From Rhodothermales bacterium (GTDB lineage: Bacteria > Bacteroidota > Rhodothermia > Rhodothermales > UBA10348): 42,174 nucleotides of DNA. Positions 17,273 through 23,184 of this stretch are shown here, in pieces; position 1 is the first letter of the stretch; every line of letters begins with the position of its first letter. The notes beneath the pieces were generated by a model. It worked only from the letters and a program-made list of their open reading frames with translations, was not told the origin of the DNA and did no database searches. Location: assembly GCA_030830105.1 (NCBI GenBank), contig JAURNP010000207.1:1-42174 (forward strand), given 5' to 3'. The position numbers and the translations under genes are program-made.

Positions 17273-18256
17273 CTACATCGCCGCGTTGGATCGATCCATC
17301 AATTCGCGCGCATCCTTCTCAACCCGCTTGGGAAGATGAGCCGGAAGAATGAGCGTCCCATCACCCTGAGGCTGTCGGGTAGACCGTACATGCACCGGAA
17401 TGCACGCATGTAGCACAGGCTCGAAAGCATGCGCATGCATACCAAGCTGATTGGCCTCGTTCCATGTCGTTGCATCTTCCAGAAGCAGGTACAGGAATCT
17501 TCCGGCCTGCTCGTTCTTGCGCGGATCGGCCGTGTAGAGCCCGTCCACATCGGTCCACCGATCGAATTTGGATGCGCCAACTGCCTCGGCAATGAGGGAA
17601 GCCGAATAATCACTTCCCCCGCGACCCAATGTCACGACGCGACCGTCGTCATCAGCACCCAGGAATCCGGTGATCACGGGGAGTTTGTCAGCTGGGAGAT
17701 GGTGGAACCACCGCTCGGCCTGAGCACGTGTCTGATTGCGGTCTACTACCCAGGATCCAGATGCGCTTTTAACGACATGGATCAACTTACGTGCGTCTAC
17801 CCACTCTGCATTGAGGCCGTGCTGCTGCAAGAGCAATGCAACGAGCGGAGCCGACATCCACTCGCCGCTGGCCCAGATGGCATGCGAACGTAGCGCACTG
17901 GGCCCGCGACGAACGACGTCGCGCAGGTTTTCAATTCGGTCCGAAAGTCTGTTCAAGTACTCCGCGTGCCGATCGTGATCCAGGACTTCTCCTGACAATG
18001 CGAGGTGGCGACGGGCGAGCTTCCGCATGAGCACCTGTTGCCGCTTCGGCTCGGACTCCTTTTCCAGGGCGTGTAGTAAGTCGGTTACACCCGACAGAGC
18101 TGAAACCACCAGTAATGGACGCGCCATCTTGGACTCCGCCGCCACGATACCCACCAGGCGTCCGAGCGCTTCTGCCGATCCGACAGAGGTCCCCCCGAAT
18201 TTGAGCACCTTGACGAGGTGGTGCCCTCCCGCTTCCTGTATGGGGTCAGTGGACAT
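17273..18256 (-). CDS. lysC: Aspartate kinase, catalytic domain only
   Basis: This 327-residue protein phosphorylates aspartate, the entry step of the aspartate-family pathway. KFGGTSVG at 19-26 binds ATP, LGRGGSDYSA at 210-219 and TDVDGLYTADPR at 235-246 are further family signatures. The sequence ends shortly after VHVRSTRQPQGDGTLI, just where the two regulatory ACT domains begin in ordinary enzymes of 400-450 residues. It therefore lacks the feedback-sensing part. No homoserine dehydrogenase domain is fused. The ATG at 18256 was chosen because the longer reading to 18601 only runs antisense-like through the neighbouring SDR gene. The start overlaps the SDR stop by 11 bases, so the two are translated from one transcript. 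Confidence 0.9.
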   Translation of the reverse strand: MSTDPIQEAGGHHLVKVLKFGGTSVGSAEALGRLVGIVAAESKMARPLLVVSALSGVTDLLHALEKESEPKRQQVLMRKLARRHLALSGEVLDHDRHAEYLNRLSDRIENLRDVVRRGPSALRSHAIWASGEWMSAPLVALLLQQHGLNAEWVDARKLIHVVKSASGSWVVDRNQTRAQAERWFHHLPADKLPVITGFLGADDDGRVVTLGRGGSDYSASLIAEAVGASKFDRWTDVDGLYTADPRKNEQAGRFLYLLLEDATTWNEANQLGMHAHAFEPVLHACIPVHVRSTRQPQGDGTLILPAHLPKRVEKDARELMDRSNAAM

Positions 18257-19004
18257 AACTGGCAGCGTTGATATCGATGGAACACCCGGTGGCGTGATCG
18301 GACAGGCCGCTGGCAAGCAGAACGATAGTCGGCGCCACGTCAGAGGGTTCTGTGAGTCGATCCAAAGCAATTCCGCCCAGAACGAAGTCCTCTCCGTAGG
18401 CATCAATGGCATCCTGTGCCATCGCCGTGCGGACGAATCCAGGGGCGATAGTGAACGCTTTGATGTTTTGTTTACCGTAGGCTCGTGCCACCGAACGGGC
18501 CAGGGAGACCATGGCTCCCTTCGAGGCCGCATAGGCCAGATAGTCTTCAGAGTCACCACGGAAGGCTGCGCGGGAGGCCATGTAGATGATGCGTCCGCCA
18601 CCGTTTTCGATAAAGTGCGGAATGGCTGCGCGCGTCAGGATGCCTGACGCGCGCGTATTCACGTCCATGGTCTTATCCCATTGCTCCACCCACTCGTCCA
18701 AGTCGCGCTCAACGGGAGAGTGAAGGGCAATTCCAGCGTTGTTGATCACGCAATCCACGCGCCCGTAGGCACCGACCACATCCCGGAAAAGGCGGTCAGC
18801 CTCCGAGGCGTCCGAGAGATCGGCCCGGAAAGCCTCGCTCTTGCCACCAATCTCCTTGCACAAGGCCACGGCCTCGTCGGAGGACGATGAGTAATGCACG
18901 GCGACGGTAGCTCCGGATGCAGCCAGCTGTTTGGCGATTTCCCGTCCAATGCCGCGGCTGGCGCCGGTTACCAGAATGATCTGTCCTGTCAGGTCGATAT
19001 GCAT
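18246..19004 (-). CDS. SDR family oxidoreductase inside the met operon
   Basis: This 252-residue FabG-like short-chain dehydrogenase has TGASRGIG at 13-20, NNAG at 88-91 and the catalytic S144, Y158 and K162 (YAASK). A HYSSSSDEA stretch follows the second strand; its neutral Ser residues favour NADPH. It overlaps metX upstream by 16 bases and lysC downstream by 11, so it is tightly embedded in the methionine operon. Known FabG-like enzymes reduce 3-ketoacyl-ACP. The context offers another idea: homoserine dehydrogenase is the one aspartate-to-methionine step not encoded here, and this reductase sits in its place. That is inference only. Confidence 0.87.
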   Translation of the reverse strand: MHIDLTGQIILVTGASRGIGREIAKQLAASGATVAVHYSSSSDEAVALCKEIGGKSEAFRADLSDASEADRLFRDVVGAYGRVDCVINNAGIALHSPVERDLDEWVEQWDKTMDVNTRASGILTRAAIPHFIENGGGRIIYMASRAAFRGDSEDYLAYAASKGAMVSLARSVARAYGKQNIKAFTIAPGFVRTAMAQDAIDAYGEDFVLGGIALDRLTEPSDVAPTIVLLASGLSDHATGCSIDINAASYVH

Positions 19005-20143
19005 GTCTTCAACGCGTGATGTCGTGGATTGGCTGGGGCGTCGAGGCGCTCAGACCAGTCACGGATAAGGACGTCGAGCCGGTCTGCATCCAGCAAGAAT
19101 CCATCGTGTCCGTGTGGCGAAGGCAGCGTAGCTACTTCCGCGTTAGTCAGGTGAGCAGCCAGCGCCTCGATATCAGCCAAGGGGAAAAGGATATCAGAGG
19201 GTATACCCACGAGCAGCACAGGTTGCTCAAGTCCAGATCTTTTTTTTCCGGATTCAGATGGGCGGGCAAACCGATCCGGATCGGAAGACAGTTTCTCCAG
19301 TCCCAGATCATGCGAATTCGCCATGTGTGTCAAACACACATAGCTGTTCGCGTCAAAGCGCTGGACCAGTTTACGGCCCTGGTGATGCAGGTAGGACTGC
19401 ACGGAATAAGAGGGACGGGGTCCGGTCTGATCAGAGGCCTGAACCTGGGGGGTGACAGCCACCGCTGCGGCAGGCTCCCGCCCAAATCGCTGCTGGAAAG
19501 AGTCGGAGTTGCGGTAGGACAGCATGGCCATCATGCGGGCTGCGGCCAATCCGGCCGCAGGCGGGCGATCTGGAGCATAGAACCCATCTTCCCACGCAGG
19601 GTCGGCATAGATCGCTTGCCGTTGGGACTCGCTCCAGGCAATACACCAGGCCGAGTGGGCGGCTGAAGTGGCCACGGCAACCACGCGCCGAACCGAGGGG
19701 TCCCATGCTGCCCACTGCAGTGCGAGCATACCGCCGAGTGATCCTCCAATGACCATATCTACGCGATCGACGCCCAGATGCGCGCACAGCTGTCGCTGTG
19801 CGCGCACATTGTCCCTCACGGTCACATCTGGAAAGTTGGCCTGCCATGGCTTTCCAGTAGCCGGATTGATGGACGTGGGTCCCGTGCTTCCGTAGCAGGA
19901 TCCCAAAAGGTTGGCGCAAATGACATAATGCTGCTCGGGATCGACCGCTTTGCCGGGTCCAAACAACCCGGACCACCACGTGGTCACGTCGGCATCGCCC
20001 GTGAGCGAATGAAACACCACCACAGCATTGTCCCGTCGCTCATTGAGCCGACCCCAGGTCCGGTAGGCCAGACGTGTCGCGGGCAGGATCGCACCGGATT
20101 CCAGCGCAAAGTTGCCGAGCTCAAAACAATCGGACTCAGCCAT
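18989..20143 (-). CDS. metX: Homoserine O-acetyltransferase (MetX)
   Basis: This 384-residue alpha/beta hydrolase-fold enzyme activates homoserine by acylation, usually from acetyl-CoA, in methionine synthesis. The nucleophile S135 lies in GGSLGGM. The acid D317 is in PSDILFP and the base H346 is in HGHDGFL. ANLLGSCYGSTGP at about 77-89 is the family's oxyanion/substrate loop. Length matches MetX of 350-390 residues. Some MetX-like proteins use succinyl-CoA, and the sequence alone does not settle this. The ATG at 20143 overlaps the metB stop by eight bases. Confidence 0.93.
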   Translation of the reverse strand: MAESDCFELGNFALESGAILPATRLAYRTWGRLNERRDNAVVVFHSLTGDADVTTWWSGLFGPGKAVDPEQHYVICANLLGSCYGSTGPTSINPATGKPWQANFPDVTVRDNVRAQRQLCAHLGVDRVDMVIGGSLGGMLALQWAAWDPSVRRVVAVATSAAHSAWCIAWSESQRQAIYADPAWEDGFYAPDRPPAAGLAAARMMAMLSYRNSDSFQQRFGREPAAAVAVTPQVQASDQTGPRPSYSVQSYLHHQGRKLVQRFDANSYVCLTHMANSHDLGLEKLSSDPDRFARPSESGKKRSGLEQPVLLVGIPSDILFPLADIEALAAHLTNAEVATLPSPHGHDGFLLDADRLDVLIRDWSERLDAPANPRHHALKTCIST

Positions 20144-21356
20144 GGACTGTCACCCCATTCGTTGAGGCCCTCGGGACATGATGTCCATTTGTCCGCGGCG
20201 TCCCTCCTTCAGGGCGAATCGCCACGTCGAAGGCCTGCTCAAGATCAGCAATGAGATCATCGACGAATTCGATGCCTACGGACAGGCGAATTACCTCGTC
20301 CGTGATTCCAGCCGCTTCACGTGCCTCCGGCCGCATGGAAGCATGACTCATGGTAGCCGGCTGCTCGATCAGGGACTCGACACCTCCCAGGGATTCGGCC
20401 AGCGTGAACACGCGTGTGGCGGACAGAAGTCGCGATATCGGAAATCCTTCGCGAACCCGGAAAGAGAGCATACCCCCGAATCCAGCCTGCTGACGCGCGG
20501 CCGTTTCGTGCCCCGTGTGACTCGACAAACCAGGATAGTACACCTCTTCAACCGCGTGATGCGTAGCCAGGTAGCGCGCTACTGCATCGGCGTTCTCCTG
20601 GTGCTGCCGCAGTCGGATCGGAAGCGTCTTGAGGCCACGCAAAATGAGCCAGCTGTCAAACGGTACAGCTGTGGCGCCCTGGGCATTTGCGGCAAAGTGA
20701 ACAGCCTCGTGCCCTTCCTTGGTAGCTGCGATGACGGCTCCGCCCACCACGTCCGAATGGCCATTGAGGTACTTGGTCGTTGAGTGCACGACATAGTCGG
20801 CTCCGAAATCGATTGGACGCTGCAGCAGGGGTGTCAGGAAGGTGTTATCAACAATAAAATCGATACCCGCATCCTTGGCGACGCTGCCCACTTGATACAG
20901 ATCCGTCACGCGCAGTAGCGGGTTCGAAGGCGTCTCCACCCAAAGAGCCCGAGTCTGCGGAGTGATGTGCAGCGCCAGCTCAAGCGGATCGGTAAGGTCT
21001 ACAAAGGACACGTTGATCTTGCCTTGACGTTGCCACCAAGACAAGAGCCGCTCTGTACCGCCGTAACAGTCATGCGAACAGATGATGTGGCTTCCTGCGG
21101 GATACAGGGAAAGCACAGACGCCACGGCGGCCATACCACTGCCGACGCATACAGCGCCGGCACCTCCTTCCAGGTCTGCCAGAGTTTGCTCGAGAGCCGT
21201 CCGGGTGGGATTCCCACTGCGGCTGTAATCGTACTCTGGTTTCGTTCCGTCCGCATTGAAGCGGAAAATGGCCGACTGATAGATGGGAAGCGATACGCTG
21301 TTGAATGTCGAATCGGTTGACTGTCCGGCCAGCGTAAGTCGGGTCTGCGGATGCAT
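20136..21356 (-). CDS. metB: Cystathionine gamma-synthase family PLP enzyme
   Basis: This 406-residue type I PLP enzyme probably joins O-acetylhomoserine with cysteine to make cystathionine. Y44 and R46 (YDYSRSGNPTR) and the schiff-base K195 in STTKYLNGHSD are visible. The FIVDNTFLTP loop at about 167-176 has the PLP-binding Asp. The Cys/Met metabolism family also includes cystathionine gamma-lyase and O-acetylhomoserine sulfhydrylase. The next gene being metX favours a biosynthetic role, but the three cannot be told apart with certainty. As first gene of the operon it carries a long structured leader. The ORF fits MHPQTRL at 21356. Confidence 0.88.
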   Translation of the reverse strand: MHPQTRLTLAGQSTDSTFNSVSLPIYQSAIFRFNADGTKPEYDYSRSGNPTRTALEQTLADLEGGAGAVCVGSGMAAVASVLSLYPAGSHIICSHDCYGGTERLLSWWQRQGKINVSFVDLTDPLELALHITPQTRALWVETPSNPLLRVTDLYQVGSVAKDAGIDFIVDNTFLTPLLQRPIDFGADYVVHSTTKYLNGHSDVVGGAVIAATKEGHEAVHFAANAQGATAVPFDSWLILRGLKTLPIRLRQHQENADAVARYLATHHAVEEVYYPGLSSHTGHETAARQQAGFGGMLSFRVREGFPISRLLSATRVFTLAESLGGVESLIEQPATMSHASMRPEAREAAGITDEVIRLSVGIEFVDDLIADLEQAFDVAIRPEGGTPRTNGHHVPRASTNGVTVHG

Positions 21357-21517
21357 GAGAGTCTGCTGCGAGGCAGCTGTTGGATGGATGATGAAGATCC
21401 TTCCATCCTGAACCGCTGATGGCTCGCCTGCCGCAGTGACCGATTCCCCGATAAGCAGTGCTGGAGAACGGGTTCGTCACTGTTGGGGTGACCGGCTGCA
21501 TGCCGCTTCGTTCTCCA
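21357..21517 (-). promoter_or_regulatory. Structured leader RNA of the met operon (candidate riboswitch or attenuator)
   Basis: In the mRNA sense, UGGAGAACG (plus-strand 21509-21517) pairs perfectly over nine bases with CGUUCUCCA (21462-21470). The enclosed part folds as two adjacent hairpins: CGGC-AUGCA-GCCG (21493-21505) and GUCAC-CCCAACA-GUGAC (21476-21492). Together they make a compact three-way junction. Farther downstream, GGATGGA pairs with TCCATCC (about 21376-21402). GCTGC pairs with GCAGC across CTC just before the start codon (about 21365-21377). No S-box, SAM-II or other known SAM riboswitch core was recognised. The position just before metB suggests control by a methionine-pathway signal, which is inference. 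Confidence 0.55.
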
Positions 21518-21531
21518 TCTCACCCAGATAC

Positions 21532-21567
21532 AAAAAAGCCCTCGCAGGCTCAGTGGCTCTGGGAGGG
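21532..21567 (-). terminator. Probable intrinsic terminator of the beta-propeller gene
   Basis: On the minus strand CCCTC (21563-21567) pairs with GAGGG (21539-21543), extended inward by CAG/CTG after one mismatch, and is followed by six T residues (21532-21537). It lies about 100 bases after the stop of the upstream minus-strand gene and before the met leader. A second perfect hairpin, AACGAAGC and GCTTCGTT around three bases at 21572-21590, stands just before it; its T run faces the plus strand. Confidence 0.5.
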
Positions 21568-21666
21568 ACACAACGAAGCGTGGCTTCGTTTTTCCTTCCC
21601 ATCTGCCTCGTATCGAGCAGGATTTAGCACCTTTGGTCCCTTATCGGGCTCCCGGTTGCTACGACG

Positions 21667-23184
21667 TCAACGGGCCTGTCCCTCGGTCGTTCTTGATGGA
21701 AGTGGGGCGAGTATACGGCAATGGACGGTTGTGTTGCAAGCCCATTCGCAATCAGGACAATCGACTTGACAGCGGATTAACCTCGCCTGCCAGTCGCGGG
21801 TTGCCTGATCGCTCCCGGTAATGGAGGAGTTGGTCCAGGCTGATCCTGAGTGCAGCCAGACACCCGCATGGTAACTGGCCAGAATTGTCCCATCCCGGGT
21901 GACATCCAGATCCCGGATGGCTGGCATGCCCGGTGGCCCGAGTGCAGCCCATCCATCTTGAGGATCCAGTCGCCATACGCCTGCTCTGGTGGCCGCCAGA
22001 AGGCTGCCGTCGGCATCCTGTGCCACATCGGTCACAGATTGTATGAGTGGAAGGTCCAGAAAGGCGCGTTCCCAGGTGCTACCCAGGTTTCCAGAGAGAA
22101 AGAGGCCTCCAGTCGTCCCGGCAACAACACGTCCATCGGTAAGGGTGCGCACCGTTGTAATCGAGCTTCGAAGGCCATTGTTGGAGGCGTGCCAGGTGAT
22201 GCCGCTGTCTGATGATCGCAGAACTCCCTGTCCGTGCGTACCGATGAGCAACGTGGAACCCAAGAATAGAATGGACTGGACATTCGAGCCTGCTGCCCGG
22301 CGGGACAGCCACGTTCCTCCCTCGTCGCCCGTCGCGTAGAGATTGCGGAAGCCGCCCGCGAACAGTGTTCCGTCAGGTGCCACCTTGATCATGGGGACCG
22401 TGAGCGGATCTGTGTCAGGCTGGATGCATGTCCACAGGCTGCCGTTGCCTCGACTTCGATAGAGAGCACATCCTCCCTGCCCCGGCTGAGCGCCAGCGAA
22501 AAGATGCCCAGATTCGTTCGAGGTGATGGAACGCACGTCATATTCCTGCAATCCAAACGAAGAGAATTCCCAGGTCAATCCTTGATCGACCGACCGAAAA
22601 ATTCCCAAGTAGTTAGCAGCAAAGGCGAAGTCTTCGTTCGCCGTCAACGATTGAACGTTGACCGAATAACCTTCCAAGGAGCGAGCGGACCAACTCGATC
22701 CCCCGTCTTCACTGCGGTAGACGAAACTATTGGCTCCGACCAGGAAGACTCCGGGTTCAGGTTCTAGGAGGCTGGTTGTATAAATGTTTTCCAGGCCGGC
22801 CGGAGTCCACCCCGCATCTTGCGCGCCCCGGCTGAAAAGACCATGACCGAATGTTGCCACTCGAACGACTCCGGACGCATCTACATGGATATCACGTACA
22901 TCGAACAAGGTCAATCCATCACTGTCAGAGGTCCACGTGTAGCCATTGTCCAAGCTTTTGTGAACACCGTTCGATGTTGCCGCCAAAATGGATCCGTCGG
23001 CCAGCCGTTCCAGATCCCAAATAGTCGTTCCGCCATAGGGACCATCGACTGGCGCCCACCAATTGGTCTGCGCACTGGCGTCGAGGACAACCAAAAACGC
23101 GAAGAAACCCACCATCAAACCAAGGAATACTCGATTCCAGGCTCTGGCGGCCACTAACGTGATATGTCGGAAAGGCATAGGCAT
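21667..23184 (-). CDS. Exported Asp-box (BNR/sortilin-like) beta-propeller protein
   Basis: This 505-residue protein has a signal peptide: basic N-terminus, a hydrophobic core (FLGLMVGFFAFLVVLDA) and a probable cut after ASA near residue 38. The mature part is a string of Asp-box motifs: KSLDNGYTW, RSEDGGSSW, RSVDQGLTW, RSSDSGITW and LSGNLGSTW, with two degenerate ones. These alternate with GVF/GLF strands, giving a sialidase- or VPS10-like propeller. No catalytic sialidase residues were recognised, so it may be a binding or surface protein. The last 50 residues, Cys-rich and ending EGQAR, do not look like a propeller blade or like a type IX secretion C-terminal domain, so the 3' end may be damaged. 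It starts 60 bases after the dnaJ stop. Confidence 0.8.
   Translation of the reverse strand: MPMPFRHITLVAARAWNRVFLGLMVGFFAFLVVLDASAQTNWWAPVDGPYGGTTIWDLERLADGSILAATSNGVHKSLDNGYTWTSDSDGLTLFDVRDIHVDASGVVRVATFGHGLFSRGAQDAGWTPAGLENIYTTSLLEPEPGVFLVGANSFVYRSEDGGSSWSARSLEGYSVNVQSLTANEDFAFAANYLGIFRSVDQGLTWEFSSFGLQEYDVRSITSNESGHLFAGAQPGQGGCALYRSRGNGSLWTCIQPDTDPLTVPMIKVAPDGTLFAGGFRNLYATGDEGGTWLSRRAAGSNVQSILFLGSTLLIGTHGQGVLRSSDSGITWHASNNGLRSSITTVRTLTDGRVVAGTTGGLFLSGNLGSTWERAFLDLPLIQSVTDVAQDADGSLLAATRAGVWRLDPQDGWAALGPPGMPAIRDLDVTRDGTILASYHAGVWLHSGSAWTNSSITGSDQATRDWQARLIRCQVDCPDCEWACNTTVHCRILAPLPSRTTEGQAR

Follow-up and report, generated by a model that had tools for sequence, protein, structure and literature searches.

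A SAM-I riboswitch leader of Rhodothermales with a second aptamer 3′ strand behind its terminator that may let read-through RNA sense SAM again

The window analyzed here, a 42,174-nucleotide stretch of a Rhodothermales genome (contig JAURNP010000207.1), contains a met operon whose leader combines a SAM-I riboswitch match and a terminator with a second 3′ strand of the aptamer placed behind that terminator. The post-terminator region has a conserved closing stem, a pairing back to the aptamer's P4 (P4′), and an invariant GAUGG that belongs to a spare P1 strand (P1′), which excludes the stem when it pairs. We propose that RNA that has escaped termination can use this second strand to sense SAM again, and we regard this reading as evenly balanced between right and wrong. 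All coordinates below are window positions, and all features lie on the minus strand.

The SAM-I riboswitch and its operon

A scan of the window with all Rfam families gave a single match, to SAM-I (RF00162) at 21702-21596. The match scored 72.5 bits (cut-off, 44.4; E = 3.3e-15) and covered model positions 1 to 108, the full length of the model. The core letters AAGA.., GAGGGA, GGCCC, GCAACC, GGUGCUAA, and AGAU, which form invariant columns in relatives, were all present in the alignment. The initial annotation of 21357-21517 had found no recognizable S-box, which was wrong for the locus: the aptamer lies outside that interval, 79 bases away on its upstream side. Its suggested ligands were methionine, SAM, cysteine, or homoserine; this is indeed a structured met-operon leader with SAM as the most likely ligand. 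A search for a second complete aptamer in the window and the genome found that RF00162 matches once, the repeated part being the 3′ strand alone.

Alignment and strand comparison placed the P1 5′ strand, CUUCCAUC, at 21695-21702, with up to three possible partners. The P1 3′ strand, GAUGGGAAGGA (21593-21603, from the alignment), doubles as the 5′ strand of an antiterminator. The 3′ strand of that antiterminator, UCCCUCCC (21561-21568), is also the 5′ arm of the terminator and contains CCCUCCC, which is invariant in 16 leaders; it can pair either with GAUGGGAAGGA or with the GAGGG arm preceding the U run. The terminator itself, identified by a terminator scan and alignment at 21532-21551, consists of this GAGGG arm, a small hairpin, and a U6 run. 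The competing strands and the U run are present and kept in relatives, and their dependence on SAM is predicted. Promoter-like hexamers (TTGCAA-18-TATACT, 21710-21739, consensus scan) precede the aptamer, relatives have a comparable TTGC...TAT(A/T)(C/A)T spacing as judged by eye, and the transcript should start at, or slightly ahead of, the aptamer. Judging from sequence, we are as good as certain that the operon is subject to SAM-I attenuation.

The operon reads metB-metX-SDR-lysC-asd, with matches to a MetB-type PLP enzyme, MetX, an SDR, aspartokinase, and aspartate-semialdehyde dehydrogenase. Its first gene, metB-like (20136-21356), encodes a Cys/Met PLP enzyme whose best model is cystathionine gamma-synthase, with a score below the equivalog cut-off. 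The aspartokinase (17273-18601) matched the kinase domain only, and because no ACT domain was found in it, this enzyme may operate without amino-acid feedback. An upstream open reading frame with YCF48/BNR-like repeats (21667-23184) remains open across the promoter and stops within the SAM-I aptamer; translating it might disturb riboswitch function, or its lack of earlier stop codons may be fortuitous.

SAM-I riboswitches occur in 95 of the 114 genomes of the order, and the same aptamer variant occurs in 17 of the 27 genomes of the window's family. In 16 of those 17, the arrangement described here stands ahead of a metB homologue; these 16 leaders represent one family and four genera and are not independent events. 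The 17th (G009) has an SDR gene next instead and is without the spare P1 strand. Among 245 genomes of the class and 395 sampled over the phylum, the exact post-terminator pattern was found in this family only.

The branched stem behind the terminator

A three-way junction (21462-21517, minimum-free-energy fold and strand tests) starts ∼15 bases past the U run and therefore exists in read-through RNA only. Its 9-bp closing stem pairs 21517-21509 with 21470-21462 (UGGAGAACG with CGUUCUCCA in the mRNA sense) and encloses hairpin A (CGGC/GCCG, 4 bp, 21493-21505) and hairpin B (GUCAC/GUGAC, 5 bp, 21476-21492), both from the minimum-free-energy fold. This is the 9-bp stem around 4- and 5-bp hairpins that the initial annotation had described, and it is both in the sequence and the predicted minimum-free-energy structure. 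The accompanying claim that the nested pairs exceed chance was confirmed, with the 161-nt stretch more stable than all 200 of its shuffles (z = -3.0). The z score against shuffles is -4.6 for the junction alone and averages -3.6 over the family's 16 leaders.

Comparison of the 16 leaders supported covariation in this stem. The duplex energy of each leader's own strands averaged -14.2 versus -9.1 for crossed strands, and 0 of 20,000 permutations equaled the own-strand value. When the constant outer pairs were removed in 14 representatives, 0 of 100,000 permutations matched the own-strand duplex energy. Counted by cell over 14 leaders (the G008/G016 pair left out), 106 of 112 were standard pairs, with changes on both sides at 6 of 8 positions, and 0 of 20,000 strand swaps did as well; the register for this count was set by hand and is biased toward the structure, whereas the duplex-energy test is independent of that register. 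We are highly confident that the closing stem is conserved. Covariation in homologous leaders, the check proposed at the outset, was thus borne out for the closing stem only.

Could the junction be an independent ligand-binding riboswitch, new or divergent from a known class, as the initial annotation suggested? Its covarying, conserved stem and its position before met genes would fit, as would the absence of an Rfam match: the leader as a whole matches RF00162, which removes its novelty, but the junction itself matches no family, with only chance snoRNA-like matches on the opposite strand at a permissive threshold. However, no conserved loop or junction letters were found among the 16 leaders, and the fold is branched in 10 and unbranched in 6 of them, so it is the closing stem that is kept and not a ligand pocket or aptamer. 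The operon is, moreover, already under a known SAM-I riboswitch with a terminator directly upstream. An independent riboswitch is very improbable on this evidence, and we conclude that the junction is a read-through part of the SAM-I leader and not a new riboswitch class.

Directly past the closing stem, (A/G)GCAC (21458-21462) occurs in 12 of the 16 leaders and is complementary to the invariant core GGUGCUAA. A general anti-stem hairpin, in which the freed 3′ strand of the closing stem would switch to a downstream GGGGAA, was considered and rejected, being significant in G001 and G004 alone (combined p = 0.30).

A copied aptamer strand and a possible second reading of SAM

GAUGG is the sole invariant run past the U run in the alignment of the 16 leaders, lying 12 to 15 nt past it in 15 of them and 34 nt past it in one with an inserted hairpin. 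It ends a post-terminator strand that reads GUAUC-N-GGG-NN-A-GAUGG(G/A), with its parts in the same order as in the aptamer: P4 3′ strand, two bases, A, and P1 3′ strand (GAUGGGAA). The strand is thus a copy of the aptamer's P4/J4-1/P1 3′ strand and can pair with the P4 and P1 5′ strands. In the window, P4′ is formed by GUAUC-U-GGG (21523-21531), of which GUAUC can base-pair with CUCGAUAC, the 5′ strand and loop of P4 (21610-21617, strand comparison). The spare P1 3′ strand, P1′, is GAUGGAGA (21512-21519), the first five letters of which are invariant in the alignment of the 16 leaders.

The P4′ partners change together. Standard pairs fill 122 of 128 cells across six P4-loop sequences, with double changes at several pairs, and the partner strands vary as AGAAUG/CAUUCU (G002), GAAGCG/CGUUUU (G008), GAUAU/AUAUC (G025), and GAAACG/CGUUUU (G026). 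In a permutation test over the six loop types, 8 of 720 arrangements were as good. G008 and G016 have GGAUGAUGGGAG as the J4/1-P1 strand of their aptamers, and the copy is identical to it over 12 letters. Copies of the aptamer strand were significant in 8 of 16 metB-type leaders versus 4 of 82 other SAM-I leaders (p 0.05, at which the latter figure is the chance level). Based on these data, we consider the P4′ pairing quite likely.

These pairings also bear on whether the leader is no more than a standard SAM-I riboswitch, with a chance structure in a 5′ untranslated region that is not under selection. Such a leader would account for the stretch past the junction, which is no better than shuffles, but compensatory changes keep both the closing stem and P4′, and the permutation tests and the mean z of -3.6 disfavor it; we find this reading scarcely credible. 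A degenerate second copy of the entire expression platform, which has lost a second terminator behind the stem, would explain the copied P1 3′ strand, the antiterminator-like stem with the same mismatch, and the alternative hairpins in G001 and G004. A terminator scan found no second terminator or U run behind the junction, the alternative hairpin is not general, and conservation speaks against decay, making a decayed duplicate distinctly unlikely.

P1′ overlaps the 5′ strand of the closing stem, and the two pairings are therefore mutually exclusive. The invariant GA of GAUGG lies outside the closing stem, so its invariance is explained by P1′ and not by the stem. In SAM-I structures, the ligand-adjacent A-U and U-A pairs of P1 belong to the SAM site, and both are retained in P1′. 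No covariation was found for P1′ itself, the pairs of which scarcely vary across the 16 leaders. In energy models of the read-through RNA, the closing stem with P4′ is the lowest state, or close to it, for most leaders. In these models, P1′ with P4′ is on average 8.4 kcal/mol costlier than the stem state and equal to the original P1 (-130.6 versus -130.9), and we judge that the gap could be bridged by tight SAM binding.

In the mechanism that we propose, the SAM-bound riboswitch would terminate metB transcription. At low SAM, read-through RNA would form P4′, and the local branched stem would hold the P1′ strand, so that the aptamer stays off. If SAM then rose, P1′ would be released from the stem to join the P1 5′ strand, rebuilding the SAM site on RNA already past termination. 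One aptamer with two alternative 3′ strands would thereby provide two checkpoints. Renewed sensing through P1′, with SAM bound by the re-formed aptamer, seems to us at best an even call and perhaps slightly less. Likewise, we advance only tentatively the complete picture of a single aptamer with 3′ strands before and behind the terminator, SAM read twice, and the branched stem as the fold that rivals the aptamer during the second reading.

The same strands might instead act as a lock on read-through with no second sensing, in which the sole role of P4′ and the stem is to make the antiterminated fold more stable and to leave the mRNA with a neat 5′ end. GAUGG would then be kept as a piece of a duplicated antiterminator strand and not for renewed SAM binding. 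In most leaders, the stem combined with P4′ is the free-energy optimum or close to it, which is consistent with a lock, as is an A.C mismatch common to the closing stem and the antiterminator in several leaders. In other families of the order, a post-terminator strand pairs with the loop and 3′ arm of the terminator (29 of 82 significant) and contains no aptamer copy, which also fits. However, a lock leaves unexplained both the invariant GA ahead of the stem and the fact that the altered J4/1-P1 strand of G008 and G016 is copied letter for letter. We regard it as somewhat unlikely but a serious competitor to renewed SAM sensing. The terminator-pairing strand of the other families, seen in L004, L006, L007, L022, and others, may itself lock the antiterminated state.

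Under renewed sensing, the second output would probably act at translation initiation, perhaps via a strand ahead of the start codon. Such an anti-P1 strand, GGAUGGAAGG (21399-21408), can pair with the P1 5′ strand and lies ∼50 nt before the metB start (p = 0.005 versus shuffles); in the fold, it is part of a hairpin whose 3′ arm is UCCAUCC (21382-21388). Throughout the order, leaders have a counterpart that can pair with the 5′ strand of P1 and with J1/2, mostly 40 to 60 nt ahead of the start codon (CUUCUGGAUGAGUG opposite CAUUCAUCCAGAAG is one case), and it tracks changes in P1 (CAUUUAUCC with GGAUAAAUG in G029). It reached significance in 48 of the 81 leaders tested across the order versus 4 expected from shuffles, perhaps an undercount given that some start codons are mis-called (ATG inside GGAUGAG), and one that includes related, nonindependent species. 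Among the metB leaders, 8 of 16 were significant. In leaders without a terminator, the anti-P1 strand is the 5′ arm of a hairpin right before the start. Eight such leaders (L098, L101, L106, L141, L147, L148, L155, and L158) have this start-proximal hairpin as their only apparent platform and, by sequence, are likely translational SAM-I switches.

The two further hairpins that the initial annotation had placed before metB do appear in the fold, but as a structured element the start-proximal stretch is at shuffle level (mean z of -0.55 over 16 leaders). Predicted start-codon accessibility showed no consistent difference between the P1′ and stem states. The end of the U run lies ∼175 nt from the start codon, and by eye no Shine-Dalgarno sequence was seen near the start in the 16 leaders. 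Members of the Bacteroidetes lack Shine-Dalgarno sequences, and their initiation is governed by local structure (PMC6847099), which makes a translational layer plausible. On balance, we see a translational output as possible, though short of probable.

Comparison with known systems

From its sequence, the aptamer is a member of the known SAM-I class, and the spare 3′ strand behind the terminator is what appears to be new. In the openly accessible literature, we found neither a study of riboswitches from this order nor a description of an aptamer strand repeated behind a terminator, a silence that is weak evidence. The usual view of riboswitches that act by termination is that they make a single decision, after which a transcript past the terminator is regarded as committed. 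If our reading is correct, a spare 3′ strand would allow that decision to be reversed through the same sensor, at less cost than a tandem riboswitch. Homology searches that look no further than the aptamer and its terminator can overlook conserved modules past that point, and the anti-P1 strands ahead of start codons suggest that second layers are common in the order.

The leader resembles other SAM-I (S box, RF00162) riboswitches in its full-length aptamer, antiterminator/terminator platform, and downstream met gene, and differs from them in the second P4/J4-1/P1 3′ strand and the conserved branched stem behind the terminator. The SAM-I riboswitch of Xanthomonas campestris also precedes a met operon and has a long, multi-hairpin platform; its control is mainly translational, sequestering the Shine-Dalgarno sequence and AUG and sensing initiator tRNA (PMC7270179), whereas the leader described here has an intrinsic terminator and, as noted above, no visible Shine-Dalgarno sequence. 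Dual platforms in which a terminator arm holds the ribosome binding site similarly join attenuation to a second layer on read-through RNA (PMC2258182), but here the U run ends far upstream of the start codon. The c-di-GMP riboswitch Bc1 likewise has one aptamer, a long platform, and a proposed transcription-translation dual regulation (PMC11218506); it has two terminators, and its abstract mentions no aptamer strand repeated behind the first of them. Tandem bi-mechanism riboswitches, such as SAM-II/SAM-V (PMC9481103), embody the same idea of one checkpoint during transcription and another, later one on RNA past the terminator. They achieve it with two separate aptamers, whereas the leader described here has one aptamer 5′ part and two alternative 3′ strands.
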